From a virus, in the IMG/VR virus record IMGVR_UViG_3300050821_002347, positions 1-48,389 of that record: a stretch of 48,389 nt of DNA. One strand, written 5' to 3'. Below, piece by piece: positions 10,951-37,832 of the stretch; within the stretch, counting starts at the first letter, position 1, and each line of letters opens with the position of its first letter. A program made the position numbers and the translations under genes. A model generated the notes under the pieces. The model saw only the letters and a program-made list of their open reading frames with translations. It ran no database searches and was not told the origin of the DNA.

Positions 10951-11427
10951 ATGGAAAACAAAACGTGCTCGAAATGTAAAGTTGCGCAGCCTGTATCAAG
11001 CTTCACGCTTTACAAAACAGGAAAATTGGCGGGCAAGTATCGCTCTCACTGCCGTACTTGCTCGTCAGCACAAGTGAAAGATTGGTCGCGGCGAAATAAG
11101 GCGCATCTTCTCGCAAGACAGCGGCGCTATTACGTTGAGAATTACAAAATGAGCATCCGGGCGCACATGGTCCGGTACGGGAAAAATGAGGAATGGTATC
11201 TTGCAACTCTTGAGAAACAACACGGTCTGTGTGCTATCTGCGAACTTCCCGAACGAGCAAAGCGAAAAGACGGGAAAATACAGCGGCTTTGCGTGGATCA
11301 CGACCACAGAACTGGCGTTGTTCGCGGGCTCCTTTGCACTGCTTGCAATAATCGCTTAGGGATGCTCGAAAAGCATGAGTGGATTCCGAAAGCTCAATCT
11401 TACTTAACGCAGTACCAACCCTCTTGA
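10951..11427 (+). CDS. HNH homing-type endonuclease, endonuclease VII-like
   Basis: A 158-aa protein. The N-terminus has two Cys pairs (CSKC, CRTC), a zinc-binding pair as in many free-standing phage HNH enzymes. The catalytic ββα-metal region reads CAIC, VDHDHRTG, VRGLLCTACNNRLG (about residues 91-140), the pattern of recombination-endonuclease VII-like HNH domains: His in DHDH, Asn in ACNN, and four Cys binding zinc. It interrupts the coat-to-chaperonin gene order, is visibly AT-richer than its neighbours and has its own promoter and a 5' hairpin, all signs of a mobile, recently acquired homing gene. It cleaves DNA; the target is unknown. Confidence 0.88.
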   Translation: MENKTCSKCKVAQPVSSFTLYKTGKLAGKYRSHCRTCSSAQVKDWSRRNKAHLLARQRRYYVENYKMSIRAHMVRYGKNEEWYLATLEKQHGLCAICELPERAKRKDGKIQRLCVDHDHRTGVVRGLLCTACNNRLGMLEKHEWIPKAQSYLTQYQPS

Positions 11428-20010: not shown

Positions 20011-20600
20011 CGCAGCGCGCAGACCTTATCGGCGGCCGGGAACTGGTACAGGTCAGAAACGAGAATCCTTCGCTTGGAAACCTGATTCGGCGCGTCATCG
20101 CGGCAGTTGAGCGTATGGCGCAGAATACCGGTGTTTCGGCGGTAGGGCAGGCCGCGCCGCCTCCGACAGTGGGAGCGGTGCAGGTCAAAGCTGCGGGCGG
20201 GATTGCTCATGTGACGGTTTCAGACAGCGCGCAAGTTTCAAAGCCTGTCGAATATTTCATTGAACACGACACAGACCCCAATTTCCCAGCTCCTCACGTT
20301 GTCCATTTAGTCAGTTCTCGCGGCGCTTTCCTGAATCTGCCTGCCAAGAACGATGCAGGAGCCTCGCAAAACTGGTATTTTCGCGCTTATTCGCAATATC
20401 CGGGTTCGCAGCCATCGAAGCCGGTCTACTTTGGCGGTCTTTCGCCTACGGCGGTGTCTGTCGGGGGAGCAGTACAACTGACGCCGCTTTCTTCTACCGG
20501 AAGTGGTACAGCCTCTCCTCTCGGCGGTCAGGGAGGATGGGGCCGCGGCAAAGTTCCCACCAGACCTGCGCCGGCGCCGAAGCGGAGCGTGACGGGATGA
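20007..20600 (+). CDS. tail-associated protein with fibronectin III-like domain
   Basis: A 197-aa protein; the ATG at 20007 overlaps the hub stop (ATGA). The N-terminus (residues 1-45) is an amphipathic helix (LGNLIRRVIAAVERMAQNTG). Residues 50-150 form an Fn3-like beta domain (VGAVQVKAAGGIAHVTVSD, PVEYFIEHDTDPNFPAP, NWYFRAYSQYPGSQPSKPVYFGG). The C-terminus is Gly/Pro/Lys-rich and flexible. Fn3-type domains are common on tails and help surface binding. It is coupled to the next gene. Confidence 0.6.
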   Translation: MTQRADLIGGRELVQVRNENPSLGNLIRRVIAAVERMAQNTGVSAVGQAAPPPTVGAVQVKAAGGIAHVTVSDSAQVSKPVEYFIEHDTDPNFPAPHVVHLVSSRGAFLNLPAKNDAGASQNWYFRAYSQYPGSQPSKPVYFGGLSPTAVSVGGAVQLTPLSSTGSGTASPLGGQGGWGRGKVPTRPAPAPKRSVTG

Positions 20601-20995
20601 ATGTGCGCGAATACAGACCGGAAGATGCTATCGAGGTTGGCGAGATTCACGCTGCGATGGGGTTGGACTACAAGATGCTGGAACTCGCTAATCCGCTGGT
20701 CGTGGCGAAGGTGGTTTGCGAGGATCAGGGCCGCATCGTGGGAGCGACTGCGTTGAAAATCGAGGCAGAAACCTATCTGTGGGTACGCCCCGATGCGAGT
20801 CCGGCGGTGAAGTGGGATGCCATTCGGCTGATGCAGGCGAATATCGCGCGACAGGCATTCCGATTGGGGATCGAGCAGATGGTTGCGTATGTTCCGCGAT
20901 GTGTTGAGCGATTCTTTTCAAAACGTTTGCTAAGATTAGGCTGGAATCCCAGTAGAGACGGCTGGCGTGCCTGGTCCTTCGAGGTGAAGCGATGA
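20597..20995 (+). CDS. GNAT-like acetyltransferase fold protein
   Basis: A 132-aa protein; the ATGA start at 20597 excludes the longer frame. It starts NVREYRPEDAIEVGEIHAAMG, the typical first strand and helix of GNAT N-acetyltransferases, followed by VAKVVCEDQGRIVGATALKI (strands 2-4) and a helix (DAIRLMQANIARQAFRLGIEQMVAYV) leading to a late strand. The canonical Q/RxxGxG/A acetyl-CoA loop is not obvious, so it may be inactive or highly diverged. Tail-module GNAT proteins occur in several podovirus-like phages with unknown role. Confidence 0.6.
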   Translation: MNVREYRPEDAIEVGEIHAAMGLDYKMLELANPLVVAKVVCEDQGRIVGATALKIEAETYLWVRPDASPAVKWDAIRLMQANIARQAFRLGIEQMVAYVPRCVERFFSKRLLRLGWNPSRDGWRAWSFEVKR

Positions 20996-21630
20996 GGGCA
21001 GCGCAGCAGCAGGCAACGAACGCAGCCAATACAGCCGGATCAACGGCGGCTGGCTATGGCACCGGCGCAGAAGACATCTCTTCGACGCTTACGCCCTTCC
21101 TTACCCGAGAATTGAATAGTCCCGCAGGCATTTCGCAGCAGGATCAGACGGCCATGCTCTCGGCTTCGCAGGGCGGTGCCGGAGGAATAGCCGGAGGGTT
21201 GGCAACGCGCGGCGATGAGCGGGCAGCGGCTACCGGGAACGGTTCGGGATTCGGGTCTTCGCTCGATGACATCGCGCGGCAGCGCGAACAGGCCGCAGCG
21301 CGCGGCTCAGAGTCAATTGCAGGCGAGAACACCCAGGCGAAATTAAACCAGCAGCAAGAGGGTGCAACGGGACTTCGCGGCATGTACGGAACCGACGTAA
21401 ACGCGCAATTGGGAGCGATGGGAGTCAGAAACAACGCCATCAATAGCGAAGTGAATGCTGGCTCTCATGGCTGGTTCCAGAATATGACGAACCTGATTGC
21501 TTCAATCCGTGGCGGCGGTCAAGGTCCGGGCGCATCTCCTCCAGGCGGCGGTGGATCGCCTGACGATGGCTCGATGGACTTTCAGGGCGCACAAGATCCC
21601 GATGAACTGGCAATGATGGGGGGCGGATGA
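20992..21630 (+). CDS. ejection-like internal virion protein (small)
   Basis: A 212-aa protein starting at an ATGA junction. It is rich in Ala, Gly, Gln and Asn (TNAANTAGSTAAGYGTG; SQGGAGGIAGGLATRG) with no Cys, and has an amphipathic middle (LDDIARQREQAAARGSESI) and a Gly/Pro/Asp tail. This composition and its place after the hub match the small pilot proteins (P22 gp7-like) that leave the capsid with the DNA. The function is inferred; no motif is diagnostic. Confidence 0.5.
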   Translation: MRAAQQQATNAANTAGSTAAGYGTGAEDISSTLTPFLTRELNSPAGISQQDQTAMLSASQGGAGGIAGGLATRGDERAAATGNGSGFGSSLDDIARQREQAAARGSESIAGENTQAKLNQQQEGATGLRGMYGTDVNAQLGAMGVRNNAINSEVNAGSHGWFQNMTNLIASIRGGGQGPGASPPGGGGSPDDGSMDFQGAQDPDELAMMGGG

Positions 21631-22907
21631 GCACAGCACCTCTCAATTACGTGCGCCCGCAGCAGGGCCCAAACGAGCTTGATTATCTCGGCACGCAGGC
21701 TCCCGATGGCTCGACTCCGCAACCGTTGCAGCCTATTCGCCCGGTTCCGCAGCCGAGTTATCAGCCGAATCCCCTGCGTCAGCGCGAGATTCAATCGCTG
21801 CAAAATTCTCTGTATTCGCAGGAAAACAAGCCGAAGCCTACCGGGTTCTGGCCGAAAGCAGAGAACGTCCTGCGGAATGTCGGATCGATCGCAGGCGGTC
21901 TGATTCTCGGTAATGACAAACTCGCAGGCATTCCCGGCACGACGCAGCACGAGGCCGCGCAGCACAATGCGACTCTGGGCGAACTAGGCACGCTTGAGAA
22001 GCAGGAAGAGGGTTCTCAGAACGATTTCGCCACGAATCAGTTGAAAGGTGCGCAGGCGGGGAAGGCTGCCGAAGAAACGCAGGAAATGCCCGGCGCAGAG
22101 CAGGCCAAGGAAAAACTGGAGGGCGCGGAAGCTGAGAAGGCTGGACGCCCTGATCTTGCGCAGGCTTACGCTACGGCGGTAACGGCAGCTTTGAATAAAG
22201 GCGGCGACCCTTCGACGGATCCAGTCGTACAGCATCTCGCCGATGCGATTACAGCTATTCAGAAGCAACCAGCAGACGCAACACCGATCGTGAAGCCTAT
22301 CGAGCGCGGCGGCAAACCGCATGAAGTGATGTACGACAAGAAGGGCAACGAGATTAAGGATTTGGGCGAGAGTGGCGAAAAACCTCCAGCACTCAGCCTG
22401 AATCTTGGCCGCGAAGAGAAGAATGATCTTATCAAGGCGTATCAGCCGACGCTTGATTCCGCTGAGCGCATGAATGTGATGACAGAGAGCTACGAGAAAG
22501 CCATCAAGGACCATGATCAGCAGGCCATGCTGAACTTGCTTGCCAATCACCTCGGTATGACGATGGGGCTGCAAAAGGGCGCACGGCTGACCAAGGACAT
22601 CATCAATGAGGCCAAACAATCTCAGCCATGGCTGCAGGGTATTGAATCGAAATTCGACAAGGACGGCTACCTCGCAGGCGTAACGCTCTCGCCTAACCAG
22701 ATGCGGCAGATGGTCGCGCTTGGGCAGGAACGCTACGCCGAGGATGCCAAGAAATCGCGATCAACGGCTCAATATCTCGGCGCAAAAGATGACGGGCCTG
22801 AACGGACACCGGGTAAGGCTACGATCAATTACTACCTCGCAAAAACTGGCGGCGATGCCACAAAAGCAAAACAGTTGGCCCTCGAAGACGGATGGACGGT
22901 GAAATAA
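21627..22907 (+). CDS. ejection-like internal virion protein
   Basis: A 426-aa protein, ATGA-coupled. It has a Pro/Gln-rich N-terminus (residues 1-70), a short hydrophobic Gly-rich segment (NVGSIAGGLILG, about 88-99), a long Ala/Glu/Gln/Lys-rich helical middle (about 110-185), and a more globular C-terminal third (LNLGREEKNDLIKAYQPTLDSAERMNVM to the end). Elongated helical, Cys-free proteins in this location are usually ejected pilot proteins (P22 gp20/gp16-type). No enzymatic motif is seen. Confidence 0.5.
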   Translation: MSTAPLNYVRPQQGPNELDYLGTQAPDGSTPQPLQPIRPVPQPSYQPNPLRQREIQSLQNSLYSQENKPKPTGFWPKAENVLRNVGSIAGGLILGNDKLAGIPGTTQHEAAQHNATLGELGTLEKQEEGSQNDFATNQLKGAQAGKAAEETQEMPGAEQAKEKLEGAEAEKAGRPDLAQAYATAVTAALNKGGDPSTDPVVQHLADAITAIQKQPADATPIVKPIERGGKPHEVMYDKKGNEIKDLGESGEKPPALSLNLGREEKNDLIKAYQPTLDSAERMNVMTESYEKAIKDHDQQAMLNLLANHLGMTMGLQKGARLTKDIINEAKQSQPWLQGIESKFDKDGYLAGVTLSPNQMRQMVALGQERYAEDAKKSRSTAQYLGAKDDGPERTPGKATINYYLAKTGGDATKAKQLALEDGWTVK

Positions 22908-24254
22908 ATGCCTGATCCCTGGGAGGAAGCAGCGAAGAATTTCAAAGGCGCACCCAAAGAGGGTAATGCGCCTGCTGCTACTTCTGCGTCCAATGATGAC
23001 TGGAAAGTGTGGCAGCAACCGGGCGCCACGGAAGCGAGTAAGCCTTCCAGGCTGGAAACGATCCGAAAGGGCATCGATAAAGCATCAGAAACAGAACCTA
23101 TCGCTGGGATCAAATCAGCCGCAAATGATCTTGGTGCCGGAACCACAAGAGTTATGCTAAATCCGTTTGCGCATCCACTTCAAACCCTGAAAGGTGTTGC
23201 GAACAGCATGGGTGCAGCGATGGGCAATCCGGATGCGATTAATAACGTTGCGCGTTCTGGTGCGGACTTTGTGAATCAATTCAGGCAGAATCCGGGTGGC
23301 GAGTCTGTGGCCGCTGTTCCTCAAGCGGTGATGGCCGCAGCGGGGGGTGGCGAGGCCGAGGCTATTCCCGAAGCTACAGGCGAGAGTGCCTTGCAGCGGA
23401 TGAATCTCCGTCCTGCACCCTCTGAATCAATTGTGCCGCCCTCGGAGATGGCTGCGCGGAAATTGAGCCAAGCCGTACTTCCGGCCACAAAGGATGCAAG
23501 CGGATTCATCAAAGCTGCCGACAAAGAAGTTCCGAACGTGCTTGATTACGCGCGCCAGCAGGGAAACCCGCTTAAAACGCAGCTAGAGTTTTCCAAGGCG
23601 GCAGGCGGTCATGCGCAAAATGTGCGGGATTTCTATGAGAATCAGGTACTCGGGCCGAATGACAGGCTGGTAGAAACCACAGGAACGGGATTTGGGCAGC
23701 AAACCGGAGAAGGGCCTAAAACCTACGCGAAACTGTCCGAAATCGACAAGCGTATTACCTCGATCAACAAGCAACTTGATGCGCCGACTCTGAATACCGA
23801 TGATGCGCGCCGCGCCCTCGCCACGAAAGAAGGGCTACAGAATGAGGCGAGCAGTTTACGGCCAATTCTTCACCAGCATCTCGGCGAAGCTACCGGGCTG
23901 GCTCCCGATGCGATTGAGAATCTTCGTCAGCGTGTCGGGCGCAGTTATGAACTCGCCAACGATACCGACGCAGCGGTAACGCAACGGATGCAGGGAGAGG
24001 GGCGCTCCCGGCTCGGGGAACTGCCACTTTCTAAGCTTCCGGCGAGGTTGCTCGAGACTCTGCGCGGGGGACCCACTGCCATTGCCGATAGAGGGTTTCA
24101 GCGCGCCATCAAGGATTATCCGGGGCAGCCAGAACCATTGCCGACAATAAACCCGCAAGGCCGTGCTGATCAATTTGTGCAAGCGCAAAGGGAACAAGAT
24201 TTACTCGCACCGGCCCGCAGCGCGCAGAACGCAGCGAGAACGCTCAGGAAATAG
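22908..24254 (+). CDS. ejection-like internal virion protein
   Basis: A 448-aa protein starting at the base after the previous stop. The N-terminus (MPDPWEEAAKNF) has a phage pilot-protein look. It is Ala/Gly-rich with hydrophobic stretches (VAAVPQAVMAAAGGGEAEAI) and long polar helices. A FxxQ/NxxxxAxxLR-like C-terminus (FVQAQREQDLLAPARSAQNAARTLRK) is highly basic. Third of three consecutive Ala/Gln-rich proteins, it probably belongs to the DNA ejection complex. No lytic transglycosylase motif was found. Confidence 0.5.
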   Translation: MPDPWEEAAKNFKGAPKEGNAPAATSASNDDWKVWQQPGATEASKPSRLETIRKGIDKASETEPIAGIKSAANDLGAGTTRVMLNPFAHPLQTLKGVANSMGAAMGNPDAINNVARSGADFVNQFRQNPGGESVAAVPQAVMAAAGGGEAEAIPEATGESALQRMNLRPAPSESIVPPSEMAARKLSQAVLPATKDASGFIKAADKEVPNVLDYARQQGNPLKTQLEFSKAAGGHAQNVRDFYENQVLGPNDRLVETTGTGFGQQTGEGPKTYAKLSEIDKRITSINKQLDAPTLNTDDARRALATKEGLQNEASSLRPILHQHLGEATGLAPDAIENLRQRVGRSYELANDTDAAVTQRMQGEGRSRLGELPLSKLPARLLETLRGGPTAIADRGFQRAIKDYPGQPEPLPTINPQGRADQFVQAQREQDLLAPARSAQNAARTLRK

Positions 24255-24264
24255 GAGAACCACG

Positions 24265-24960
24265 ATGCCAAGCTACAACAAATCGCCTTTCGCAGCACAG
24301 CCGCAGAAGCTTATTCCCGGCCAGCCCGCTTATGTCTTCGGCTCATGGAACTCTGATATTCCGCCGACAAAAGGCGTGGTCAATAATGTGGCGCTCACGA
24401 CAAACGTGGCGACGGTCACGGTGCTGATCAATGAAGGCAACATTCCCGCAGTCGGCTCGCTGATCACGATTCAAGGCACGGCTTCAACCTCGGGCCTGTT
24501 CAACGTGACCAATGCAACGATTACGGCCGTGAGCATCACTGCATCAACCGGCGCGGGCACTATCACGTTCGCCCTGACTCATGCCAATGTCGTCAGCGCG
24601 GCCGACGGGGGCACATTCATCATCCCGACGCCGGAAGTAGGCGAGACGCTGGCAAATGGCGCATCCTTGGCGGTTGGCGTGCCCTACGCGACGCCGTTCA
24701 CGACGGAGAGCACTACTCAGTCCGTCACCGCGCTCGTGAGCTTCCCGAGCCTGCCAACTACGGCAACGGTGGTGCTCCAGGGCGCGATTCAGAACATTGA
24801 TTCCGAATACCAGACGATTGCCACGGTGGGAACCGTAATCGGGGGCGCGGCTTCGGTCACGTCGGCTGGCTTCATCGGCAAGTGGAATTTCTACCGCCTG
24901 CTGGCTTCATCGGTAACCGGTGGAACGAGCCCGACCATTGTAGGCAAGATTCTCATTTAG
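24265..24960 (+). CDS. virion protein with one beta module
   Basis: A 231-aa protein. The ATG at 24265 has AGGAG 9 bases upstream; the longer frame is out of register with the preceding gene's end and is rejected. A basic N-terminus (residues 1-25, SYNKSPFAAQPQKLIPGQPAYVFGSW) is followed by a beta module related to those in the tail genes (VNNVALTTNVATVTVLINEG, then FALTHANVVSAADGGTF) and an Ig-like C-terminal domain (TTESTTQSVTALVSFPSLPTTATVVLQGAI). It is probably a head or tail decoration or an adaptor for the spikes encoded next. Confidence 0.55.
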   Translation: MPSYNKSPFAAQPQKLIPGQPAYVFGSWNSDIPPTKGVVNNVALTTNVATVTVLINEGNIPAVGSLITIQGTASTSGLFNVTNATITAVSITASTGAGTITFALTHANVVSAADGGTFIIPTPEVGETLANGASLAVGVPYATPFTTESTTQSVTALVSFPSLPTTATVVLQGAIQNIDSEYQTIATVGTVIGGAASVTSAGFIGKWNFYRLLASSVTGGTSPTIVGKILI

Positions 24961-24968
24961 GGGGAGCG

Positions 24969-27900
24969 ATGCGGCGTTATCTTGGGTTTCTCGTCCTGCT
25001 CATGGCGCCGCTGGCGTTCTCGCAGAGTTATTACCGGATGCCGCTCCAGTTGCAGAATCCTCAAGGGCAGGCTATCTCGGGCGCCAAAGTCTACATCCTC
25101 ACGCAGCCAGCCAATACCTCTTCGTTTACCCCGCTGGCTACGCTCTACTCAAACGGTACTGGCGCCGCTTCTCCCTTGAACTGTGGTCCCGTCAACGGCT
25201 CCAATCAGATTGCAAATCCTGTCATCACGAACGGTCATGGCGAAGGTTGCGCTTACGTGATGGGAGCCGGAAACCTTTATACCGTCTGCTATGTGTCGCC
25301 CTATACAGGAACGCAATGCTACCCGGATCAATCGCCTGTGGGCGGGGCTACGGGCGTGCTGGCACCGTCTGCGCCTTCAACCTCGGTGCAGGCGGCTAAC
25401 TCAACAGTCACAGCCTTAGTAAGCGATCCCAATATCACGCTGGACACCACGACTCACACGCTCAAAGCCCAGAACGAGATAGGAAACAACAACAGCACTG
25501 TCTACGTCATGGCTTCGCCGTACAACGCCGCGTGCGATGGCGCAACAGATGACAGCGGCCCTATCCAGGCTGCGATTACGGCTGCGGGAAACCAGGGGAC
25601 TGTCGAATTTCCTCCAAACAAGGTTTGCGCCGCTCATGGCCTTACTACATCGCCGCTCACGCAACTTGATCTGCATGGCTCAACCCTACAGCTAAATCTT
25701 GCGGGCGGCACGATCCTGACCGTTCCGCAATCAACCGGCACGGTGCCCAATTCTAAGCTAGGCCCTTCTCTGCGCAATGGTTCATTCAATTGCAATAGTC
25801 TGACTGGTTCAACGGTTGGAATCTACGTCTCGAGTGCGTCCTTCTACGTGGCGAACGTGAGAGCTTATGGCTGCGCCACAGGCTTGGAGCTTTATGAAGG
25901 CCAGTACGGGGAGTACCACAGCGTCAACCTGTTCAGCAACACGGTTGGGCTTAAACTCTATTCTGATCCCACAAATGGCGGCGGCCTCGATAACAGTTTC
26001 TACGATGCTTTTATCGGGTATAACCAGGTCGGTGTGATCGCGTGGGCAAATTCGTCATTTCCGTTGAATGACAACAATTTCTACAAGCTGCGCATGAGCG
26101 TCAATTCGGTTGCGGGCTTTGCGCTAATCGGGAATCCTGCTGACCCGAGTTTGGCAGGAGTGAACGTCTACGGCGGGTATGGAGAAGGTGATTCATCTGG
26201 TTCCCCGAGCAACATCGTAATCGATGGAAACACCATCAAACCGGCAACATTCTACGCTTCGTATGGGACCATCAACGCCAATAATTTCGGCTCCGATTCG
26301 ACTCCGCAATATCTCTATCGCCTCGAGAACAGCTCCTCGCTGATCCTCTTCAATGGCGGTGGTTATGGAAACACTACTGGCTACTACGTCTCCGCTGATC
26401 CCACGAGCAACGTCTACATGGATGGGCCTGTGGGTGGCGATGGTGTCTATCAGAATGTGGCGACGTGGCCCTCTAATATTCTGTTCAATTACGCCATGAT
26501 GACGGGTTCCCCGATCTCCACGGTGGATCCTTCGACCGTTAACGCTTATACGGGAAATCCGTTTACGATCGGCTTCGCTTTGGTGTCTGGCGGCATCACG
26601 ACATCCACGGTTACCGACCCTCAGTTTGGCAGCGTCTCGCAGGCTATATTCGCCCCCACACCGGGAAATGTCAGCGCCAACCGGGTCACTCTCGGGAGCA
26701 GCGGTTCGGGCGTGTTCCCGACCGTCCCGACCACCGTTGCGTCCACATATCTGGTCAGCGTGATGGTGAAAGCTTCGGTGAATTGCTCTTTCACGGTGCG
26801 CGCGGAATCAACTGCGTCCACGCCATATTTCTCAATCTCGCCAAACTTGGTTGCAGGTCAATGGACGAGAATCGTGCTCGCTCAGATCAGTGTTGCTTCG
26901 GGAGTGCAGATCAATATTGGCGCATTCCCGAATGATTCAACCGGTCCGACTGTCCAGTTTGCCAATCTTGAAATGATCGCGTTGCCAGCCCAGGCACCGG
27001 CAACGATTCAGGCCGTTGCTCATGTGTTGCGGGATGGGGCGGTTGGGCCGAATGGATTTAAGCCTTTTATTACCTCTCTGACCACCATAGGCAGCAGCGG
27101 TCCGGCAACCGTGACCGCTGGCGTTCTGAATATTCCGCAATACACAGGTGGGACCGGCAGCGGTACCGTATCCAACTGCTCAACGCAATACGCCTTTTTC
27201 TACGCCGCAGTTACAGGCACGACAGCAACCTGCGATGGCAACCTGACTGACAATGGCACGCAATTTGTATTTGCGCTCCCCCTCAGCATCAGCGGCACAG
27301 GAGCCAGCCAGATTGCATTCACTTACAACGCCACTCCACTGGTACCCGGCAGCAGCACGACAGCCGTGGTGGGTGCGAACTCTTCCGGCCAAGGCGTGTT
27401 GAGCGAAGCAGGCGCGGCAGCGGGAAGAATCTGCACCGCAACTAATGGCGTGTGTCCGGGTGGGAGTGGAAGCATCAATCCCGGCTACTGCACAACTTCT
27501 GTCGGCAATCAGCTTTGCGTTACCGATTCAACCTACAACGCTTCAGGCAGCGGGGCGACAACAACAACCGTTTCCGGAACGTGGACCGCTGGCACATCAG
27601 GATCAGTAGCATCGTGCTCGACTTTCAGCAGCGCGAATCAGGGTGTCTACATCGCGGGGGCAGGCGCGGCAGGCGCGGCGTACATCGGCGCAGTCGTTTC
27701 CTGCACCGGCACGACCATGACGGTCACCCCGGCGACGAGCACAACTGTTTCATCGAGCAATGTTGTGCAGCATGACGAAACAGCGGCATTTCAGTCCGCG
27801 CTCAATTACTTCGGCACCAACGTGGCGGGCGGAAATATCTGGGTCAACGATGGAATCTATCTCGTCAATGGTCCTCTTCAAGACACCGGCCATGCCAACG

Positions 27901-29291
27901 CGAACGGCAAACTGCTGGTCCCGTCGATTGAGTATGGACTCTCCTCGCCTGTCCCGGTAAGCATCGGCATCAAGGGATTTACTCAGCCCACGCAGACCGG
28001 AATTACGCAAGGCGCAATCATTCAGACCGCAGGCACTTCAGGAAACCTCATCGGTGGTACACATGATGCGGGTGGTCCGTTCGGTATCTTCACTAATGTC
28101 TATCTGACGATGGAAAATGTGACGCTGCGCTCTTACCTGAATCCGACTATCAACATGCTGAATGCGGGCTACATCGCAGGCTTGCGTCTCAATCACGTTT
28201 GGTTTGACGCTGGACTTACCATTTCTACGCCATCGAGCGCTGTTGGTGTAGCCTTAACCGAGCCGTACACTCTAAACAGTGCCTTCGTCCAACTGGATGA
28301 TGTAACTACCATCGGCTATGGAACCGGCATCATATTCGGTGAACATTCAGTGAGTCACTCACTTTATGCCGCAAACGAATTCAATTGCTATGTATTCGAT
28401 GTAGGTGCTAATGGCCTCGGTGGAACTACCAACTCTGTCAACGTGGGTTACCTATGGGCGCAGAGTTGTACAAATCAAATAGTCGGTCCGTCTTCGTCTC
28501 AGCCGACCACCGTTAACATTCAAAACGCGGACATAGAATCGGCTACTAGCCATGGAGTGAATGACCCGAATAACTTGTTGCGCGGAACGATCAATTACCA
28601 CGTTCCTGGATCATCGGGTCCAGTCAGTACTGTTGGAGCAACCGGCGTTTGCCTCTTCAATCTGGATTTTCCGAATAACAGCATTGGCTGTCCGGGCGGA
28701 GCAGTACAGGGGACTTCCTTCACTACCGAACCGAGCGCACCGTGGGCGATCACGAATTTCCAAGCCTCGGGTGCCGCCAACATGGGGGTCCAAAGCGGAT
28801 CAGGCACATGGGCATTCCTTACAGCCAGCAGTGCCGGGAACCCCGGATTCATATGGGATAGCTCGCATAGCTTTTCGCTTGCGACCTCGACAGCTACGAG
28901 TGGGGCAGGGTTTAACCCGCTCTTTGTATTGCAAGCCAGTGGGGTTTTTAGCTTTGCATCCCTCGCTGGAACTGGAAACCGGTATCTTCAAGCAGACGCG
29001 AGCGGCAATGTCACGGCAACCGGAGCCGTTACGCTTTCTGGGACAACTAGTAGCATTGGCGGCGGCGCGTTGCTGGTTAACGCTTGTGCGACTGGTACTG
29101 CAACCATCACTGGGATATCGAGCGCGATGGTGATTCAAGTCACCCCAGTTTCAGATCCGAATGGTTCTACGGCGCAGAATTACGACTGGTACGGATACAT
29201 GAGCGCTGCAAATACAGTGACGGTCAAAGTCTGTGCTTTGGTTGCAGGGACGCCAACAGCCACAACATACAACGTGAGGGCGATACCATGA
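24969..29291 (+). CDS. tailspike-like protein with signal peptide and two beta-helix domains
   Basis: A 1440-aa protein; the ATG at 24969 has GGGGGAG upstream. Residues 1-19 (MRRYLGFLVLLMAPLAFSQ) are a textbook Sec signal peptide, which is odd for a virion protein. Next is a tail-fibre entry domain (residues 25-110, LQNPQGQAISGAKVY, LATLYSNGTG, NPVITNGHGEG). A pectate-lyase-type beta-helix begins near 185 (ACDGATDDSGPIQAAITAAG) and runs to about 510. A CBM-like jelly roll follows (about 515-680). A second beta-helix starts near 930 (HDETAAFQSALNYFG). The last 100 residues form a fibre-tip-like end. It probably binds or degrades host-surface polysaccharide; no catalytic residues can be assigned. 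Confidence 0.7.
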   Translation: MRRYLGFLVLLMAPLAFSQSYYRMPLQLQNPQGQAISGAKVYILTQPANTSSFTPLATLYSNGTGAASPLNCGPVNGSNQIANPVITNGHGEGCAYVMGAGNLYTVCYVSPYTGTQCYPDQSPVGGATGVLAPSAPSTSVQAANSTVTALVSDPNITLDTTTHTLKAQNEIGNNNSTVYVMASPYNAACDGATDDSGPIQAAITAAGNQGTVEFPPNKVCAAHGLTTSPLTQLDLHGSTLQLNLAGGTILTVPQSTGTVPNSKLGPSLRNGSFNCNSLTGSTVGIYVSSASFYVANVRAYGCATGLELYEGQYGEYHSVNLFSNTVGLKLYSDPTNGGGLDNSFYDAFIGYNQVGVIAWANSSFPLNDNNFYKLRMSVNSVAGFALIGNPADPSLAGVNVYGGYGEGDSSGSPSNIVIDGNTIKPATFYASYGTINANNFGSDSTPQYLYRLENSSSLILFNGGGYGNTTGYYVSADPTSNVYMDGPVGGDGVYQNVATWPSNILFNYAMMTGSPISTVDPSTVNAYTGNPFTIGFALVSGGITTSTVTDPQFGSVSQAIFAPTPGNVSANRVTLGSSGSGVFPTVPTTVASTYLVSVMVKASVNCSFTVRAESTASTPYFSISPNLVAGQWTRIVLAQISVASGVQINIGAFPNDSTGPTVQFANLEMIALPAQAPATIQAVAHVLRDGAVGPNGFKPFITSLTTIGSSGPATVTAGVLNIPQYTGGTGSGTVSNCSTQYAFFYAAVTGTTATCDGNLTDNGTQFVFALPLSISGTGASQIAFTYNATPLVPGSSTTAVVGANSSGQGVLSEAGAAAGRICTATNGVCPGGSGSINPGYCTTSVGNQLCVTDSTYNASGSGATTTTVSGTWTAGTSGSVASCSTFSSANQGVYIAGAGAAGAAYIGAVVSCTGTTMTVTPATSTTVSSSNVVQHDETAAFQSALNYFGTNVAGGNIWVNDGIYLVNGPLQDTGHANANGKLLVPSIEYGLSSPVPVSIGIKGFTQPTQTGITQGAIIQTAGTSGNLIGGTHDAGGPFGIFTNVYLTMENVTLRSYLNPTINMLNAGYIAGLRLNHVWFDAGLTISTPSSAVGVALTEPYTLNSAFVQLDDVTTIGYGTGIIFGEHSVSHSLYAANEFNCYVFDVGANGLGGTTNSVNVGYLWAQSCTNQIVGPSSSQPTTVNIQNADIESATSHGVNDPNNLLRGTINYHVPGSSGPVSTVGATGVCLFNLDFPNNSIGCPGGAVQGTSFTTEPSAPWAITNFQASGAANMGVQSGSGTWAFLTASSAGNPGFIWDSSHSFSLATSTATSGAGFNPLFVLQASGVFSFASLAGTGNRYLQADASGNVTATGAVTLSGTTSSIGGGALLVNACATGTATITGISSAMVIQVTPVSDPNGSTAQNYDWYGYMSAANTVTVKVCALVAGTPTATTYNVRAIP

Positions 29292-30469
29292 GATTAAGCC
29301 TAAAAGTACTCTTTCTTGCCGCGCTGACAGTCTGGGCGTTTATACCGCTGACTGTCGCGGCGCAGTACAACCCTCCCCAGGTTGCGGCAACACAGTTCAA
29401 TCAGGGCAATTCTCTGCCTACCGCCTGCAGTGCCATGCAGGTCTACGGACTCATTAGCGGAACAAGTGGATCGCCCTACTACTGTTCTGCGCCAAACACA
29501 TGGACTGCGTTCGGCGGCGGAGTTGGAGGAACAGTAACCAGCTTCAGCGCCGGAACACTATCGCCCATTTTTACGACCTCGGTAGCGACTGCAACGACAA
29601 CTCCAGCACTTTCTTTTACTCTCTCAACCCAAACCGCCAACACCCTGTTCGCAGGACCAGCATCAGGCAGCGCAGCGGGACCCACTTTCCGCGCGCTCGT
29701 CTCAGCCGACATTCCCAACAACGCAGCGAATACCACAGGAACGTCGGGTGGGCTTACTGGATCCCCGGCGATCACGGTTTCTAGCTGCACGGGGTGCGGA
29801 GGCGGCAGTAGTATTCCGATTGTTTCGCCTTACACTTTTGTAGCGGAAACCACCGGAACGGCGGTGACGACTCCAGCAATTTCGGTGACGGCAGGTCAAC
29901 TCCTCATTGTCAGTTGCCGCTTCGGAGTGGGGTCAACCTGTGTGTCCACAGATTCAGCGAGTGACACCTTCACCCCAATCACAGCCCAGAACATCGGTGG
30001 AGTGGGCACAGGCATCCGAATGTCCTACGCCATCGCCACCGCGACTGGATCGACGACCTTTACCTGCACGCAAGGATCATCTGGAGGTGGGCTGTCCTGC
30101 ATCGCGTTCCCGATCTCAGGGATAACCGGTACATCGCCCAACACCAACAACGGCAGCACGACAACCAGTAACTCCACGGTGGTCGGACACCTCCAAAACA
30201 CGGTCAGCTTCACCTTCACAACAACGGCAAGGACCATCGATATTTTCTGTGGAGCGATTGATTCAGGAGCAGACACCTTGCAGCCGGGCATTCTTGCCGG
30301 AGGATTCGGAACGATTGTCGCACTCTCATCAGCCAGCCAAGGCACTAATGCGGATCAGGGATGTGAAGTTCAGATCGTTCCCTATGCTCTACCGGGAGGG
30401 ACGGCGGCAATGTTATACGGCTCTCATGCAGTTGAGTCTGCCTATTCGGTAATCGCGTGGCCCTACTAG
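29288..30469 (+). CDS. fibre-like protein with signal peptide
   Basis: A 393-aa protein; the ATGA junction sets the start. Residues 1-24 (MRLSLKVLFLAALTVWAFIPLT, then VAA-Q) are a Sec signal peptide with an A-x-A-like cleavage site. Residues 90-150 contain the fibre motif FAGPASGSAAGPTFRALVSADIP, a stretch repeated in many phage fibre proteins. The C-terminal half is a Cys-containing Ig-like beta domain (AISVTAGQLLIVSCRFGV, FTCTQGSSGGGLSC). It is presumably assembled with, or functionally linked to, the two large neighbours. Confidence 0.65.
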   Translation: MRLSLKVLFLAALTVWAFIPLTVAAQYNPPQVAATQFNQGNSLPTACSAMQVYGLISGTSGSPYYCSAPNTWTAFGGGVGGTVTSFSAGTLSPIFTTSVATATTTPALSFTLSTQTANTLFAGPASGSAAGPTFRALVSADIPNNAANTTGTSGGLTGSPAITVSSCTGCGGGSSIPIVSPYTFVAETTGTAVTTPAISVTAGQLLIVSCRFGVGSTCVSTDSASDTFTPITAQNIGGVGTGIRMSYAIATATGSTTFTCTQGSSGGGLSCIAFPISGITGTSPNTNNGSTTTSNSTVVGHLQNTVSFTFTTTARTIDIFCGAIDSGADTLQPGILAGGFGTIVALSSASQGTNADQGCEVQIVPYALPGGTAAMLYGSHAVESAYSVIAWPY

Positions 30470-33400
30470 ATGAAGCAAGTCCTCTTACTGTTCGCCCTGA
30501 CAATCCCTGCCTTTGCGCAGACGACGGTCAACGTAACGACCACTCCGATTCATAACGGAGTCTTGCCTATTGGCACGGTCATTGGTGGAATCGGCTGCTA
30601 CAGCACGCGGCAGATTCTCAAGGACTTGAACTACTGTAATTTTGGCTATCTGAATGCCGTCGAGTATCAGACTTCGTGGTATGCAAACACCGGAGGAACG
30701 CTCAGCCCGACCAACTTTTTCAATGCGGCGAACTTTATCGGCGCTTATCCGGCGAACTTCTGGAACGGGGCTTCCTACAACCTGCTCTCGCAGAGCGGCG
30801 GCTCGATCAGTTCCGGCACCATCACAGCGCAGACGGCCAACAACGGCGGCAGCGGCGCGAACTTCACTCCGTCACCAGCATTCAGCTTCACCCCGGTCAC
30901 CGGCGGGAACACAACCGTTCAGGACGTGATGCTGACTTCCTGCCGGGGCTATACGCAATGCCCTAATTCAGTCGCACCGGTCAATGCAATCCTGCCGCAT
31001 ATCTCCGGCACTGGGTCGGCTTCGTGGGATACGGTAAATCTTGACCCGCACTCTGCGAATAAGACTCACACGCTGCAATTGACTGCTGGAGAGCAGGTTC
31101 AATACTTTCTGGATCAGTTAACTCCTCAAGCACAGAACACCGTCACCACGACGCAGGTCAACGCACTCAATGTAAACGGAACCTACACAACAAAGTTCGA
31201 TGATTGGTGCGCGAGTGGCCCTTGTGCGGCGACGTGGAGTGTCAAGAGGGGCACGACGACGCTTGCTTCTGGAACCACAACTCCAACCGGTACGTGGGCG
31301 CAGCGCAGCATTAACTGGACAGGCACAGAGAACGGCGGCCAGAACGATCAACTGACATATAACATCGGTTGCTCCACCGGTGATTGCCGCTTCGCCGACA
31401 TGACGGTGATTGAAGGGTCTACCTTGGCTGGAAACACGACTCCCTTCCGCGATGACTACGTTCGTTCTCTCCAGAACCAAGGCGATAAAGTTGTCCGCTG
31501 TATGGACCCGGCGAACTGGGCTTCTGACGTTTTGAGCGCTACCCTGAATATCGGCGGCGGGATCTTCGCAACCAACAGTTCTCCGTTGAACTCGACCAAC
31601 TTTACGGCTGCTCTGCCCTATGGTGCATGTCTATCGCTGGCGCAATTTCTCGGCGGCACGGCTGTCATCTCCATCGGCAAGAACACGACTGCTTCCGACG
31701 CCGCTATCTGGGCTGAGTATCTCGGCGGGACGTGCGGAACCACCGGAGGAGCGATTCGCTGCAGCCAAGCGCAGTCGGCCACTTGGAATTCCCTTTTCTC
31801 TGCAACCCATGCCATCGTCACTGAATTCGGCAACGAGCCTTGGAACACCGGAGCGGCCGGATCGATTGATTCAGGGAACGGCATCGCTTATGGAGTGTGG
31901 ACAAAATCAGCACTGGCTGCGTTCAAATCCGACCCCGGATACAGTGCGACTATTGATCTGACTTCAGTGAACGGGCAGGCGATCCATCCGCAATCTGATT
32001 CAAACTTCGGCTGGGATTACGAAGTTCTGACCACGATGGGATGCACGGCGGCCAATGCAAATTGCCCAACCTACATCGAGCACGCGCCCTACATCTTCAA
32101 CGAGTACAACTCGACAACCGATGTCTACACGGATGAAATGGTTGAGGGCTATAACACGTCTTCGACCTCGATCGTAGGCTGGCAGAATATGAAGAATGCG
32201 CAGTCTTATATTCATTCGACCTTCGGCATCAACACGATGATTTACGAGGTGAGTTATAGCCCGACCTCCGGCTCTGCTTCACCAACCCAGGCACAGGTCA
32301 ATAACGACACAGCCTCGGTCGGAACGGGTCTGAACATCTGCGAATTTGAACTGGGCATGATTCGCGATGCCGGAATCTATGGCCCAATCAACAACTTCGC
32401 TTTTGTGGATCAGCCATATAACGTAACGGTAGCAGGCCGAGTTCAGTCCTCATGGCAGGATACGCAATATCTGGCAGCGGGACCGGGGCAGCTCGGGTCG
32501 TGGACCGATGTCTTTCGCCCCAAATACTACTGCCAGCAGATGATCAACCAGGCGATTAACGCGACTCCCAACTTGGTTTCCTGTCCTCAAACGGGAACAC
32601 CAACCTTGAACTATCCTGGCGGTCAGGGCGGGCAGGTGCCGGCCAATGCTGCAGTCCCTTATGTAAATACCTTCTGCCTGACAGACGGGGCTGGGAACTT
32701 CAACGTCATCGCCTTCAACAACAACAGGAGCGCCTCCGAATCTATCACCATCACAGGCAACTCCCCCACAGGCACCGTGACGGCCACCAGCATGGGCGGG
32801 CCTACGAACCTCGTCACAGACAACAACGCGCTGACGAACATCAACAATCACGGTACCGCGGCGCCGGTAGTTGCGCCTTCGCCTGCGTCTCTTACGGGCG
32901 TGACGTATTCTCTCGGCGCTGGATCGATTAACGTCTTTTCGTTCGCTACAGGAACGCCCACCGCAGCCACGCCGACCTTCTCTGTGCAATCTGGAACGGC
33001 TCCCCAGTACCTCACTATCTCGGATTCAACGCCTGCCTCGATCATCTACTACACCACGGACGGATCAGCCCCGACGACTTCAAGCTCCCAGTATCACGTC
33101 CCGCTGCTCATCTACCCGACGCAGACCGTGAAGGCGATTGCTGCGGCGGCTGGCTACCTAAATTCCCCCCCGGGCAACACCTCGTACACCATCACCGCCC
33201 CCACTATCCGTGTGTCGTTGATGCGCAATGCCAGTTCGCAGACAGTCACCCCAACGCCCTTGGATGACCGCATGCTCCCTTCAAGTGGCGTGCGGTGGTC
33301 TGACATCTTCCCTACCAGCGGAAGCGCAGGAGTCTTCACCAATTACGACGCATGGGTAGCGGCGGCGAATGCTAATGGGTCCAAAGTCACTTTTACTGCG

Positions 33401-34633
33401 CAGGCTCGGCCTACATGGATGACTGGTTTGGCAGCGAACACGGATGGTCCATCTTCTGACTGGAACACGCCTACCGCCTGTGGGACTGTGGGGGGCATGG
33501 TTCTCGGTACCATCAAAGATTGTCTCTGGGTTACGTCAGACATCAAGTTCTTCATGCACGTCACTGGGCTGAGCACAGTACCGAGTTCTCCGGTCAGTTG
33601 CCCAAATCTGGATACGCTTGAAGCATCGAACGAATCGAACACCTATTCAGGATCGAGTTCCAGCGTCGGATTCAGTGGAACGCCAGCCTCTCTCGTGCAA
33701 ACGATGGATGATATGGCGTGGGTCAAGGCGCAGTGGTGTACGTCGCAAACAAAGATGCTGGTCGGGTCGTTCTCTTCAGTCGTGGGTTCAAACGGAACCA
33801 GCAATCCCCAGTACGACGTTTATGCGGCTGACATTCTTTCACTCATTCCTGCCAATTACGCAGGCTATTACCAAGGCATCTCGATCCATATGTACCCAGG
33901 CAGAGACAATGTGATTCCTGTCCCCCCGCCGACATCGAACGTCAGCTATTCGGACGCTGCTTGCACCAGCGGCAACACGCCCAATAACTCCTGCTACGTT
34001 CCACCGGCAACTCAGGTAGCGCAACTCAAAAGCGTAGCGCTTCTACAAGCCGGAAACGCTTCATGGTCGGGTAACTGGCCTGTCTTCATCACCGAGGGCG
34101 GCTACAACAAGATTCTGAATCTCAACGGCGATAACACGTTTGGGGTTGCGTACATCTCCGAACTGATTCCCCTAGCCGCAGCGCAGCGTGCCTATAACCT
34201 GATGCTCTACCTCGGCAACGACACGTCGGCTGGAACTCCGTGCCCGAGCTTCACGGCAAATTGGGGCTGCTACGGCGTTTCGCCCTTCAACACGGCAACC
34301 AGCCAGTCGATCACCTGGCAGAACTCGACAACCGCAGTCGGCACCTGCACCACATCATCGATCACAGGCGGCACCATGTGGACGTGTCCGGTGACTCTGG
34401 CTTCTCTCGGCTCAGCCGCAATCGTCTGGTGCGCCGTACAGGACCCCGCAACCTGCACCACCTCAACCGCCTTCAACACGCAGCAGAATATCAACGGGAC
34501 TATCTCCTCAACAGGTGGTACGCTCACCCTAAGTTCTACTGCGGAATTGGTCTATACGGTTTCAGCGCCGCCGGTTACCAATGTGACTGTGCAGGGCTTA
34601 GTGAATGCGCAAGGAAAGGTCGTTATTCAATGA
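30470..34633 (+). CDS. multidomain secreted glycoside hydrolase-like protein
   Basis: A 1387-aa protein beginning directly after the preceding stop. Residues 1-16 (MKQVLLLFALTIPAFA) form a Sec signal peptide. A beta region follows. A first clan GH-A-like barrel has EFGNEPWN at 452-459 (acid/base Glu456 in an NEP motif) and a candidate nucleophile Glu593 in IYEVSYS. Residues about 835-912 are a chitobiase/hexosaminidase C-terminal-type beta domain (SIIYYTTDGSAPTTSS), common in Acidobacteriota. A second barrel has ASNES (Glu1055) and FITEGGY (Glu1209). It probably hydrolyses capsule or EPS. The exact family and substrate are unknown. Confidence 0.72.
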   Translation: MKQVLLLFALTIPAFAQTTVNVTTTPIHNGVLPIGTVIGGIGCYSTRQILKDLNYCNFGYLNAVEYQTSWYANTGGTLSPTNFFNAANFIGAYPANFWNGASYNLLSQSGGSISSGTITAQTANNGGSGANFTPSPAFSFTPVTGGNTTVQDVMLTSCRGYTQCPNSVAPVNAILPHISGTGSASWDTVNLDPHSANKTHTLQLTAGEQVQYFLDQLTPQAQNTVTTTQVNALNVNGTYTTKFDDWCASGPCAATWSVKRGTTTLASGTTTPTGTWAQRSINWTGTENGGQNDQLTYNIGCSTGDCRFADMTVIEGSTLAGNTTPFRDDYVRSLQNQGDKVVRCMDPANWASDVLSATLNIGGGIFATNSSPLNSTNFTAALPYGACLSLAQFLGGTAVISIGKNTTASDAAIWAEYLGGTCGTTGGAIRCSQAQSATWNSLFSATHAIVTEFGNEPWNTGAAGSIDSGNGIAYGVWTKSALAAFKSDPGYSATIDLTSVNGQAIHPQSDSNFGWDYEVLTTMGCTAANANCPTYIEHAPYIFNEYNSTTDVYTDEMVEGYNTSSTSIVGWQNMKNAQSYIHSTFGINTMIYEVSYSPTSGSASPTQAQVNNDTASVGTGLNICEFELGMIRDAGIYGPINNFAFVDQPYNVTVAGRVQSSWQDTQYLAAGPGQLGSWTDVFRPKYYCQQMINQAINATPNLVSCPQTGTPTLNYPGGQGGQVPANAAVPYVNTFCLTDGAGNFNVIAFNNNRSASESITITGNSPTGTVTATSMGGPTNLVTDNNALTNINNHGTAAPVVAPSPASLTGVTYSLGAGSINVFSFATGTPTAATPTFSVQSGTAPQYLTISDSTPASIIYYTTDGSAPTTSSSQYHVPLLIYPTQTVKAIAAAAGYLNSPPGNTSYTITAPTIRVSLMRNASSQTVTPTPLDDRMLPSSGVRWSDIFPTSGSAGVFTNYDAWVAAANANGSKVTFTAQARPTWMTGLAANTDGPSSDWNTPTACGTVGGMVLGTIKDCLWVTSDIKFFMHVTGLSTVPSSPVSCPNLDTLEASNESNTYSGSSSSVGFSGTPASLVQTMDDMAWVKAQWCTSQTKMLVGSFSSVVGSNGTSNPQYDVYAADILSLIPANYAGYYQGISIHMYPGRDNVIPVPPPTSNVSYSDAACTSGNTPNNSCYVPPATQVAQLKSVALLQAGNASWSGNWPVFITEGGYNKILNLNGDNTFGVAYISELIPLAAAQRAYNLMLYLGNDTSAGTPCPSFTANWGCYGVSPFNTATSQSITWQNSTTAVGTCTTSSITGGTMWTCPVTLASLGSAAIVWCAVQDPATCTTSTAFNTQQNINGTISSTGGTLTLSSTAELVYTVSAPPVTNVTVQGLVNAQGKVVIQ

Positions 34634-35043
34634 GAATCAAAATCGCCTACGTCCTGTTCGTTACCGGGCTTCTGGCCCTGATCGCATCGGTTGCAGGGAA
34701 TGCGCAGGCTTCCACAGTTGCTCTCCCCGGCCCTTCTCACTCCGCAATGGTGAGCTGGACAGCGCCCGCGAATTGCACGTCTACCGCGCCCTGTACGTTT
34801 CAGGTCTACCGCACCACAGGGACCGCTGCGTGTACGGTGGGGAGTCCGGGGTGGACCTTTGTCGCGACAACCTCGCCACAGGTGGGCAGCTATTCCGACA
34901 ACACGGTGTCTGGCGGGGCGACGTACACTTACGCCATCTTTGTCGTGCAGCCTTCGCAACCGATGTCACCGCCTGCGTGCGGTACCGGAAGCATCCCTTT
35001 CGATGGCGCCCCTGTGCAAAATGTCGCGGTAAAGGGGCAGTAG
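34630..35043 (+). CDS. small secreted fibronectin III-like protein
   Basis: A 137-aa protein, ATGA-coupled to the previous gene. Residues 1-28 (MRIKIAYVLFVTGLLALIASV, ending NAQA-S) are a strong Sec signal peptide. The remainder is one Fn3-type beta domain (VALPGPSHSAMVSWTAPANC, FQVYRTTG, YSDNTVSGGATYTYAIFVVQ) with paired Cys that could form disulfides outside the cytoplasm. It is the fourth consecutive gene with an export signal. It may be a binding partner of the hydrolase. Confidence 0.68.
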   Translation: MRIKIAYVLFVTGLLALIASVAGNAQASTVALPGPSHSAMVSWTAPANCTSTAPCTFQVYRTTGTAACTVGSPGWTFVATTSPQVGSYSDNTVSGGATYTYAIFVVQPSQPMSPPACGTGSIPFDGAPVQNVAVKGQ

Positions 35044-36071: not shown

Positions 36072-36208
36072 AAAATGACTTTTCAGAGTTCCACACGATC
36101 GCGGTAAATCAAGCCCTCAACAGCGACGCCATCAAGATTCTTAGCTGGCATGAATTGCAGTGCCTTGCGCGCCTGATTATCTGGCCGCGCCCAAAGGCAA
36201 AGGCATGA
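36068..36208 (+). CDS. 46-aa hypothetical protein
   Basis: The ATG at 36068 has GGAGAAG upstream and overlaps the previous stop. The sequence starts MKNDFSEFHTIAVNQALNSDA and ends RLIIWPRPKAKA. The TGA overlaps the next ATG at 36205. The longer frame from 35960 lacks these signals. No family was recognised. Confidence 0.45.
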   Translation: MKNDFSEFHTIAVNQALNSDAIKILSWHELQCLARLIIWPRPKAKA

Positions 36209-36597
36209 GCGCAGTCCCCCAGTACGTCTGGATTCTCGGCTATGCAACCCTGATCTTGATCCTTATCGCTTTCATGGTCATCCGCAGCGGGTTCACGCTG
36301 ACCGGCTTCATTACCGCACTGAACTCCATGAGCAGCCCTATTCTGGCTGTGGTCGTTATCTGTCTTGGCTGCGTTTACTCCATCATTTCCAAGCGCTATG
36401 GCCTCGACGGGAACACGGCTGCAGGCATCGTAGGAGCCGGAATCGGACTGCTGACCGGGCAAGTTCTGGCTTCGACTCGTTCCCAGGTAACCGACGGACA
36501 CCCCACCACCACACAGCAAACCACCGGGAACACGGCTGCCGCGCCAATCCCTCCGCTGCCAGTTCCCGTTCCACCCGCACCACAGGAGCATCTTTAA
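36205..36597 (+). CDS. putative holin
   Basis: A 130-aa protein, ATGA-coupled. Two to three hydrophobic segments are visible: residues 6-25 (YVWILGYATLILILIAFMVI), 35-58 (MSSPILAVVVICLGCVYSI) and a weaker Gly-rich one near 72-86 (AGIVGAGIGLLTGQVL). The C-terminal 40 residues are Thr/Pro-rich and polar. A membrane protein of this size just upstream of the lysozyme gene is the best holin candidate. There is no family signature, so the call rests on topology and position. Confidence 0.5.
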   Translation: MSAVPQYVWILGYATLILILIAFMVIRSGFTLTGFITALNSMSSPILAVVVICLGCVYSIISKRYGLDGNTAAGIVGAGIGLLTGQVLASTRSQVTDGHPTTTQQTTGNTAAAPIPPLPVPVPPAPQEHL

Positions 36598-36980
36598 TGA
36601 AGCGATTAGCAAAACTGACAGCCTTGGGAACTTTGTTTCTGGCTCTTGGCTGGATGGTGGGGTGCAAGACCTCAAACCCGACAACTCCAGCCCAACTCGC
36701 CCCCGGCTACAACAACGCAGCCGATCAACAGATGGGGGAGATTCTGGCCGGAGCGCACGCCTTCTACACGTCGATTCAGCAGCAGGTGGAAGCAAACCAA
36801 ATGGGCATGACGCCGGAACTCAAGGCTCAGTTCAACACATTCGGAGTGAACCTGAATGCCGCCCAGAACGTGTATCTGGCCTACCACGCGGGAACAGCGA
36901 CCCAGGCACAGGCTCAGACAGCCGTAAACACAGTCCAGAGCCAGCAGGCGGCGCTACCGCTGCCGGGAGCGAAACCATGA
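36597..36980 (+). CDS. putative phage lipoprotein
   Basis: A 127-aa protein, TAATG-coupled. Residues 1-22 (MKRLAKLTALGTLFLALGWMV, then GC) look like a signal peptide ending in a lipobox (MVGC, Cys23), so the mature protein would be lipid-anchored. The rest is a Gln/Ala-rich helical domain (FYTSIQQQVEANQMG, LNAAQNVYLAYHAGTATQAQAQTAVNTV). In lysis cassettes small lipoproteins often serve as outer-membrane spanins; here the helical body is consistent but unproven. Confidence 0.55.
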   Translation: MKRLAKLTALGTLFLALGWMVGCKTSNPTTPAQLAPGYNNAADQQMGEILAGAHAFYTSIQQQVEANQMGMTPELKAQFNTFGVNLNAAQNVYLAYHAGTATQAQAQTAVNTVQSQQAALPLPGAKP

Positions 36981-37360
36981 GCACGACACCAACCCCGACC
37001 ACCGGCTTTAACTGGCAGGCTCTTTTGCCCGTCATCGAATTAGCAGGGAACACTATTGTCAGCATCCTTGTCCCAGGCGGTGCTGCCTTCCAGCCGCTCA
37101 TCACCGGCCTTGAGAACGCCTTCAACCCTCTTATTGCATCGATCGGCACCCACCAGACGCCGCAGAACGAAATCATGATCATCTACGGAACGATCATCGG
37201 CGCGCTGACAATCGCCAAACAGCAGCCAGGACTGCCACAGGCAACATTGACCCTGATCGACAACTACATCACGGCAGCGCAGAGCGGCACAGCGGCTTAT
37301 TTGCAAGCGCAGACGGGATATAACCCGGCGCTTCTCACCCCGGTGACGCCCATTGCCTGA
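36977..37360 (+). CDS. hypothetical lysis-region protein
   Basis: A 127-aa protein, ATGA-coupled. It is moderately hydrophobic with several short apolar helices (LLPVIELAGNTIVSILVPGGAAF, IMIIYGTIIGALTIA) and a Gln/Ala-rich end. It may associate with membranes. No family was recognised. The next gene starts with TTG inside its last codons. Confidence 0.5.
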   Translation: MSTTPTPTTGFNWQALLPVIELAGNTIVSILVPGGAAFQPLITGLENAFNPLIASIGTHQTPQNEIMIIYGTIIGALTIAKQQPGLPQATLTLIDNYITAAQSGTAAYLQAQTGYNPALLTPVTPIA

Positions 37361-37832
37361 TTTAAAGATCAGATTCGTTACCGAAGCCGGTTTCGTGTCA
37401 TGGGCTATTCGGGGTGTGACGTTCAGCGAGTTCTCGCATGTCGAGATCGAGCTGCCCGATGGCACATTCCTGGGCGCTCATGCAGGCACAGGCGTTCAGA
37501 TCCGTCCCGCCAATTACATGAAGCCCACCTTCGAGCGCAGGTACGCAATCCCGATGGGCGAGGATGCCTACAACCGTGCGCTGTACTACGCGAAGGCTCA
37601 AATCGGCAGCGCGTACAACTACGCCGACATCACCGGACTACTCTTCCATCGCAACATCACCAAGAAAGGCCGGCTGATCTGTTCGCAATATGTTTTTGAC
37701 GTGATGGAAGCAGGATCGCTCGAAGTGCTGAATGTCCTTTCGGCTTACGATTTCAGGGTGACGCCGGATATTCTGCACCTTGCGCCCATCTTCATCGGGA
37801 AGCAATATCTCCAGACGGCGGTTCCCAAATGA
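37353..37832 (+). CDS. permuted NlpC/P60-like (YiiX-type) hydrolase
   Basis: A 159-aa protein with a TTG start at 37353. The His comes first (FSHVEI, His29) and the Cys later (RLICSQYV, Cys110), the order of circularly permuted NlpC/P60 (LRAT/YiiX-like) papain-fold enzymes. GAHAGTGVQI and AQIGSAYNYADITGLLF match the region between. Such enzymes cleave peptide or amide bonds in peptidoglycan or lipids. It may act with the lysozyme encoded next, giving two different cell-wall activities. It is coupled by ATGA to the lysozyme. Confidence 0.7.
   Translation: MPDLKIRFVTEAGFVSWAIRGVTFSEFSHVEIELPDGTFLGAHAGTGVQIRPANYMKPTFERRYAIPMGEDAYNRALYYAKAQIGSAYNYADITGLLFHRNITKKGRLICSQYVFDVMEAGSLEVLNVLSAYDFRVTPDILHLAPIFIGKQYLQTAVPK

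Follow-up and report, generated by a model that had tools for sequence, protein, structure and literature searches.

Four consecutive genes of an uncultured soil-type phage begin with predicted Sec signal peptides (SPs), and the first of them, A, is best explained by sequence comparison as a virion-type spike, built of an SP, then a tail-spike anchor domain, then a variable body. We favour, with somewhat better than even confidence, a model in which such spikes would be exported by the Sec system, disulfide-bonded and docked on particles at lysis, the same cassette probably also supplying exported helper enzymes.

Four consecutive genes start with predicted signal peptides

The window, that is, the whole stretch of DNA analysed, is an entire IMG/VR virus record of 48,389 bases. 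The four genes, here named A to D, and their neighbours are as follows.

24265-24960, +, 231-aa structural-type gene directly before A, with counterparts ahead of the L083 homolog of A and of the L109 SP genes (inspection of N-termini)
24969-29291, +, gene A, 1440 aa, SD GGGGGAG
29288-30469, +, gene B, 393 aa, ATGA overlap with A; SP (25 aa, cut between VAA and Q), fibre-repeat module and C-terminal domain; 10 Cys
30470-34633, +, gene C, 1387 aa, abutting B (TAG directly followed by ATG)
34630-35043, +, gene D, 137 aa, ATGA overlap with C; SP and small beta-rich protein of ~110 aa, Fn3 not confirmed; 4 Cys
36160-37832, +, genes downstream of the cassette that probably form the lysis region, encoding a membrane protein (36160), a lipoprotein (36597) and a cysteine-peptidase-like protein (37353, phrog_1128); the others assigned by sequence inspection and position

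The genes are contiguous, their coordinates and start codons check out, and they are translationally coupled or abutting. The N-termini are MRRYLGFLVLLMAPLAFS followed by Q in A, MRLSLKVLFLAALTVWAFIPLTVAA followed by Q in B, MKQVLLLFALTIPAFA followed by Q in C, and MRIKIAYVLFVTGLLALIASVAGNA followed by QA and then S in D, with a candidate cleavage site on either side of QA; Gln is thus at or near +1 in all four. Each start has the n-h-c organization of a Sec-type SP according to our own scorer, which combines the n, h and c regions with positions -3 and -1, and the scores of 6.9, 7.6, 7.8 and 7.9 for A, B, C and D can be read against reference values of 8.1 for OmpA, 7.4 for MalE and 7.0 for LolA, with no call for LacZ and PhoA missed. 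Shuffles of the first 44 residues matched these scores in 80, 18, 6 and 39 of 5000 cases for A, B, C and D, respectively, and none of the 24 other window genes checked, other structural genes included, scored at this level. Because spurious six-frame ORFs with alternative starts sometimes score 7, a lone SP would be weak evidence, which four consecutive SPs at real starts are not. An earlier note on this DNA, which had claimed a Sec SP for each of the four neighbouring genes, is borne out on this point; its description of them as one cassette is right as to position and gene coupling, less so as to content, since the cargo differs between relatives.

The mature proteins are of low charge and Cys-rich (1.6-3.6%), and the four genes directly upstream (20992-24960) contain zero cysteines. 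PHROG and Pfam searches of A-D returned almost no matches, pattern scans with the full-length sequences of A, C and D turned up no relatives among viruses, and isolated phages yielded no match to B, C or the mature A N-terminus. Elsewhere in the window, two lipoprotein-like ORFs lie outside the cassette (36597, +; 38827, -), the tail module includes an acetyltransferase-like small gene (20537-20995) with similar-looking genes in L083 and L109, and a 158-aa ORF among the head genes (10951-11427; 9 Cys, 20% Lys+Arg) may not be a gene.

Gene A combines a signal peptide with a tail-spike anchor

24969-25022, +, SP of A, 18 aa, cut between AFS and Q; kept in the sister-phage homologs L083/L107 and L109
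25023-25331, +, tail-spike N-terminal anchor domain of A, residues 19-121, four Cys; 47% identical in sister phages
25332-29291, +, body of A, variable and possibly a beta-helix, with no relation to the sister-phage bodies; weak sub-threshold Pect-lyase_RHGA_epim match

Gene A is located between late virion genes and lysis genes (the lysis assignment being partly by inspection), and at this position the sister phage G401, whose TerL is 67% identical, encodes a homolog of A that also starts with an SP. The two proteins align over their first ~121 residues only (47%), and the other ~1300 are unrelated. A third relative, L109, has likewise kept the SP and anchor in front of an unrelated body, and SP genes flank its A homolog on both sides. 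The SP and anchor are the only part of A conserved in two sister phages (~47%), with no homology to the sister proteins past residue ~121-150. Tail spikes and other receptor-binding proteins evolve in just this manner, keeping the N-terminus and swapping the body. The anchor is homologous to those of podovirus tail spikes of the PBR31 type, at profile level only (hhalign prob 85, E 6e-6); its AlphaFold model was too poor to use (pLDDT 45). Matches of the A4 scan to L110 and L111 were discarded as false frames. Tat export of A was considered on account of its MRRYLGF start, but a short n-region and the lack of RR in the sister SP favoured Sec.

Signal peptides and cysteine pairs in unrelated tail-protein families

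About 20 other virus contigs carry SP-bearing fibre or spike genes, often two or three in succession (consecutive SP genes occur in L002, L036, L051-L054 and L109), and 41 of 54 SPs fit an AxA-Q type site. The fusion points are exact in several of these. Met1 of the PBR31 depolymerase tail spike, the anchor of which is common to dozens of phages, with no SP in any whose gene start was checked, coincides in alignment with the SP cleavage site of the L052 protein; Met1 of ZP6 gp17 (phrog_1640 tail protein) lines up with residue 21 of the L054 protein, and the SP of L053 is joined at the start of the SP-less L033:10792. Within the ZP6-type family, mature SP forms start with TVT and many SP-less forms with MTVS, and the 8 distinct SP rows make up one fully supported group, which is consistent with a single SP gain that was subsequently kept. 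In the PBR31-type family, 79 of 80 anchors begin at Met without an SP, the single SP protein being that of L137, and the earlier premise that virion spikes normally have no such signal is therefore sound. A Gp53-like tail-fibre C-terminal domain is present on one SP protein (L051), and among fibre ORFs with the B module about half start with an SP and about half with ordinary fibre N-termini. As judged from these alignments, at least four unrelated tail-protein families, the window type counted, have gained a predicted SP ahead of an ordinary virus-type domain, and paired Cys with it.

The median Cys content was 1.79% in SP-bearing proteins versus 0.09% in SP-less fibres with the same module (p 2e-8), and an even Cys count was found in 39 of 43 complete SP proteins, with an odd count in 4 (p 1.6e-8; SP-less control, 5 to 7); some SP proteins are mutually related and both p-values thus overstate independence, and the separate families agree. 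Exactly two Cys are present in 11 of 11 SP anchors of the ZP6-type family versus none of 16 SP-less ones. For the PBR31-type family, the long SP-less proteins have a median of 0.32% Cys, and the SP protein of L137 has 20 Cys (2.5%). Each of three SP anchors of the window-type family carries four Cys and the SP-less G278 anchor one, and a 131-aa protein of L048 has two Cys that are absent from its SP-less homologs. The total of A is odd (23 Cys), and L189 is Cys-rich with no SP found. Together, the gain of Cys, the even counts and the Cys pairs in anchors make export of the SP-bearing spikes to an oxidising compartment well supported at the level of sequence.

A few further loci deserve mention. 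A jumbo-sized virus contig (L047, 264,912 bases) has an SP-bearing fibre-type gene of 1629 aa with 34 Cys (226-5115). A conserved chromosomal locus in the Bacteroidota contigs L061, L062, L064, L066-L068 and L072 encodes SP-bearing fibre-like proteins of 1200-1700 aa and an SP protein of ~235 aa; the same Bacteroidota-type locus is found in L063, which is titled Comamonas and probably mis-binned.

Genes B, C and D

The fibre module of B is common to 59 virus loci and its C-terminal half is shared with the SP proteins L051:10507 and L085:7632; B is probably a further exported fibre. The AlphaFold model of D was too poor (pLDDT 57), and the Foldseek result obtained from it is meaningless. Gene C has the following parts.

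30470-30517, +, SP of C, 16 aa, cut between AFA and Q
30518-32950, +, module 1, GH51-like (clan GH-A) hydrolase, conserved E456 (GNEPWN) and E593 (YEV), alignment A9
32993-33166, +, CHB_HEX_C_1 / Fn3_assoc domain, Pfam 3.5e-13 and 7.5e-12, above cut-offs
33167-34633, +, module 2, C-terminal part, NES and ITEGG motifs only

Residues ~13-816 of C match Acidobacteriota proteins of ~820 aa (to 6e-38), several of which carry SP or lipoprotein signals. No GH model of Pfam or NCBIfam accepts C on its own; the joint profile matches GH51 arabinofuranosidases (to 2e-13), and both glutamates expected for clan GH-A, conserved in module 1 as E456 and E593, are likely the catalytic residues by comparison with GH51. 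C is hence best seen as a host-derived secreted hydrolase, GH51-like and related to Acidobacteriota proteins. Of the domain labels first given to the cassette, the profile upholds a glycosidase for C, but A has just its sub-threshold pectate-lyase match, B and D have no Pfam match worth naming, and the Fn3 fold of D is unproven.

Exported enzymes and exported spikes may therefore share one cassette. One version of this, to which we give a near-even chance, is that A and perhaps B are exported virion spikes and that C and D act as secreted accessories and stay off the particle, which refines our main model and is not opposed to it. A recognisable anchor is present in A only and C begins directly with a host-type enzyme module, as this version would have it, but B and D are assignable either way.

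Another possibility is that the four proteins are exported but none of them belongs to the virion, and that former spikes and host-derived hydrolases act as soluble enzymes in the periplasm or after release, as receptor destroyers or as decoys, for instance by limiting superinfection or freeing progeny from polysaccharide. The Acidobacteriota homology of C and the secretion signals of its homologs fit this idea, as does an SP-bearing subtilase inside the phage SP cassette of L053 (15246-16718; PF00082, 4e-12), which like C looks to be a plain secreted enzyme, and so does the cargo that differs between relatives. However, A, L109, L083, L052 and L054 have all kept the anchor and its exact N-terminus while the bodies were swapped, which would be needless for a soluble enzyme, and a second, SP-less spike of the same anchor type was not seen on the contigs tested, each having one copy of its own anchor type. 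We consider this possibility unlikely. The earlier suggestion that soluble polysaccharide-degrading enzymes are exported accordingly fits C but not A, in which the SP leads into a tail-spike anchor with a body that is swapped in sister phages.

Prophage relative and host

A search of 396 Acidobacteriota-group genomes with the A anchor gave one match, on the contig with the best TerL relative. This match, an SP-less homolog of the anchor in L085 (3621-4136, E 1.4e-20), a region that we take as a probable Acidobacteriota prophage, matches the A5 profile at 1.8e-5; this domain has its own Met start and is without the last two of the four Cys. It is followed downstream by a large protein with an SP (less certain, from a TTG start) and by one of 251 aa, related to B, whose start resembles an SP. 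The arrangement in L085:3618-8387, a separate SP-less anchor protein and then SP-bearing fibre-type genes, is possibly a split version of A. An anchor and TerL relative on an Acidobacteriota contig point to an Acidobacteriota host, which we regard as more likely than Bacteroidetes. A Q-rule has been described as Bacteroidetes-specific (PMC5837995); in a small Acidobacteriota sample (L192-L211, L070, L071 and L073), Gln also followed predicted SP sites more often than any other residue (7 of 27).

A proposed export route for tail spikes

Our preferred model of exported spikes is built by comparison on the conserved SP, the exact anchor fusion, the Cys pairing, the conserved slot, the swapped body and the variable cargo. 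Late in infection, the host Sec system would translocate A, and once the SP was removed its N-terminus would correspond to that of SP-less spikes. Periplasmic disulfide formation would come next, and the mature protein, presumably trimeric, would meet finished particles when the envelope breaks at lysis, attach to them and thus be present in the particles. The P22 tailspike attaches to finished heads in vitro, which makes late docking plausible.

The predicted status of SP cleavage in A-D would accommodate a different reading, in which the N-terminal segments stay uncleaved and act as hydrophobic tails in the virion or as membrane tethers; the frequent AxA-Q type sites and the even Cys counts, which imply an oxidising compartment, make this very improbable. 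The idea of an unusual membrane-linked assembly, also raised in the earlier note, hence comes closer in its unusual assembly route than in its membrane link, the evidence favouring Sec export, cleavage and disulfides. That the N-termini are vestigial or chance hydrophobic stretches recently captured from host secreted genes can appeal to the presence of some fibre modules in secreted proteins encoded on Bacteroidota and Acidobacteriota chromosomes, but is scarcely credible given that the SP persists both in sister proteins of 47% identity and in 8 distinct spikes of the ZP6 type, with matching Cys pairs.

More broadly, and more tentatively than for the window itself, we propose that many tailed phages finish their particles outside the cytoplasm, sending receptor-binding spikes through the host Sec and periplasmic disulfide machinery and adding them only when the cell bursts, by a route with several separate origins in unrelated spike families. 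If true, assembly of the whole particle in the cytoplasm would be a wrong assumption for many soil phages, spike assembly would depend on host Sec and disulfide formation, and disulfide-rich receptor-binding proteins would be explained. Before lysis, spikes would already be outside the cytoplasm, where they could serve as decoys or have an effect on the envelope. An SP, an anchor and even cysteines would provide a simple sequence marker for such phages, and it should be kept in mind that not every SP-bearing phage "carbohydrate enzyme" is an auxiliary metabolic gene.

Comparison with known systems

The open papers searched (subscription papers and preprints were outside the search) contained no account of SP-bearing tail spikes and no precedent for an exported spike docking on a tailed phage, and the suggestion of an undescribed system holds for those papers only. 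The nearest account concerns Porphyromonas gingivalis phages whose encoded SPs have Gln at +1 and seem adapted to the Sec/SPI of the host (PMC10367356), but these are five genes of unknown function that are not tied to tail spikes. T4 Spackle gp61.3 is exported, has a cleaved 22-residue SP and one disulfide, and binds the virion protein gp5 (PMC7650644), thereby providing a precedent for a Sec-exported phage protein that binds a virion component; unlike A, it is a small lysozyme inhibitor and not a receptor-binding spike. C resembles soil-virus auxiliary carbohydrate enzymes such as the chitosanase of PMC9485262, which differ from the present case in that A is a virion-type spike and several consecutive SP genes occupy a tail slot. 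Coat proteins of filamentous phages, for example M13 G3p, include a receptor-binding virion protein made with a signal sequence (PMC8310372), but M13 is not a tailed phage and assembles its filament at the membrane. The podovirus spikes of PBR31 (Xanthomonas), ZP6 (Alteromonas) and X14 (Shewanella), while differing from the SP-bearing spikes in having no SP and no Cys pair in the anchor, share with them a homologous N-terminal anchor and the plan of a conserved anchor with a variable body, and the gene of the PBR31 spike is placed likewise, with internal proteins encoded on one side and lysis genes on the other.
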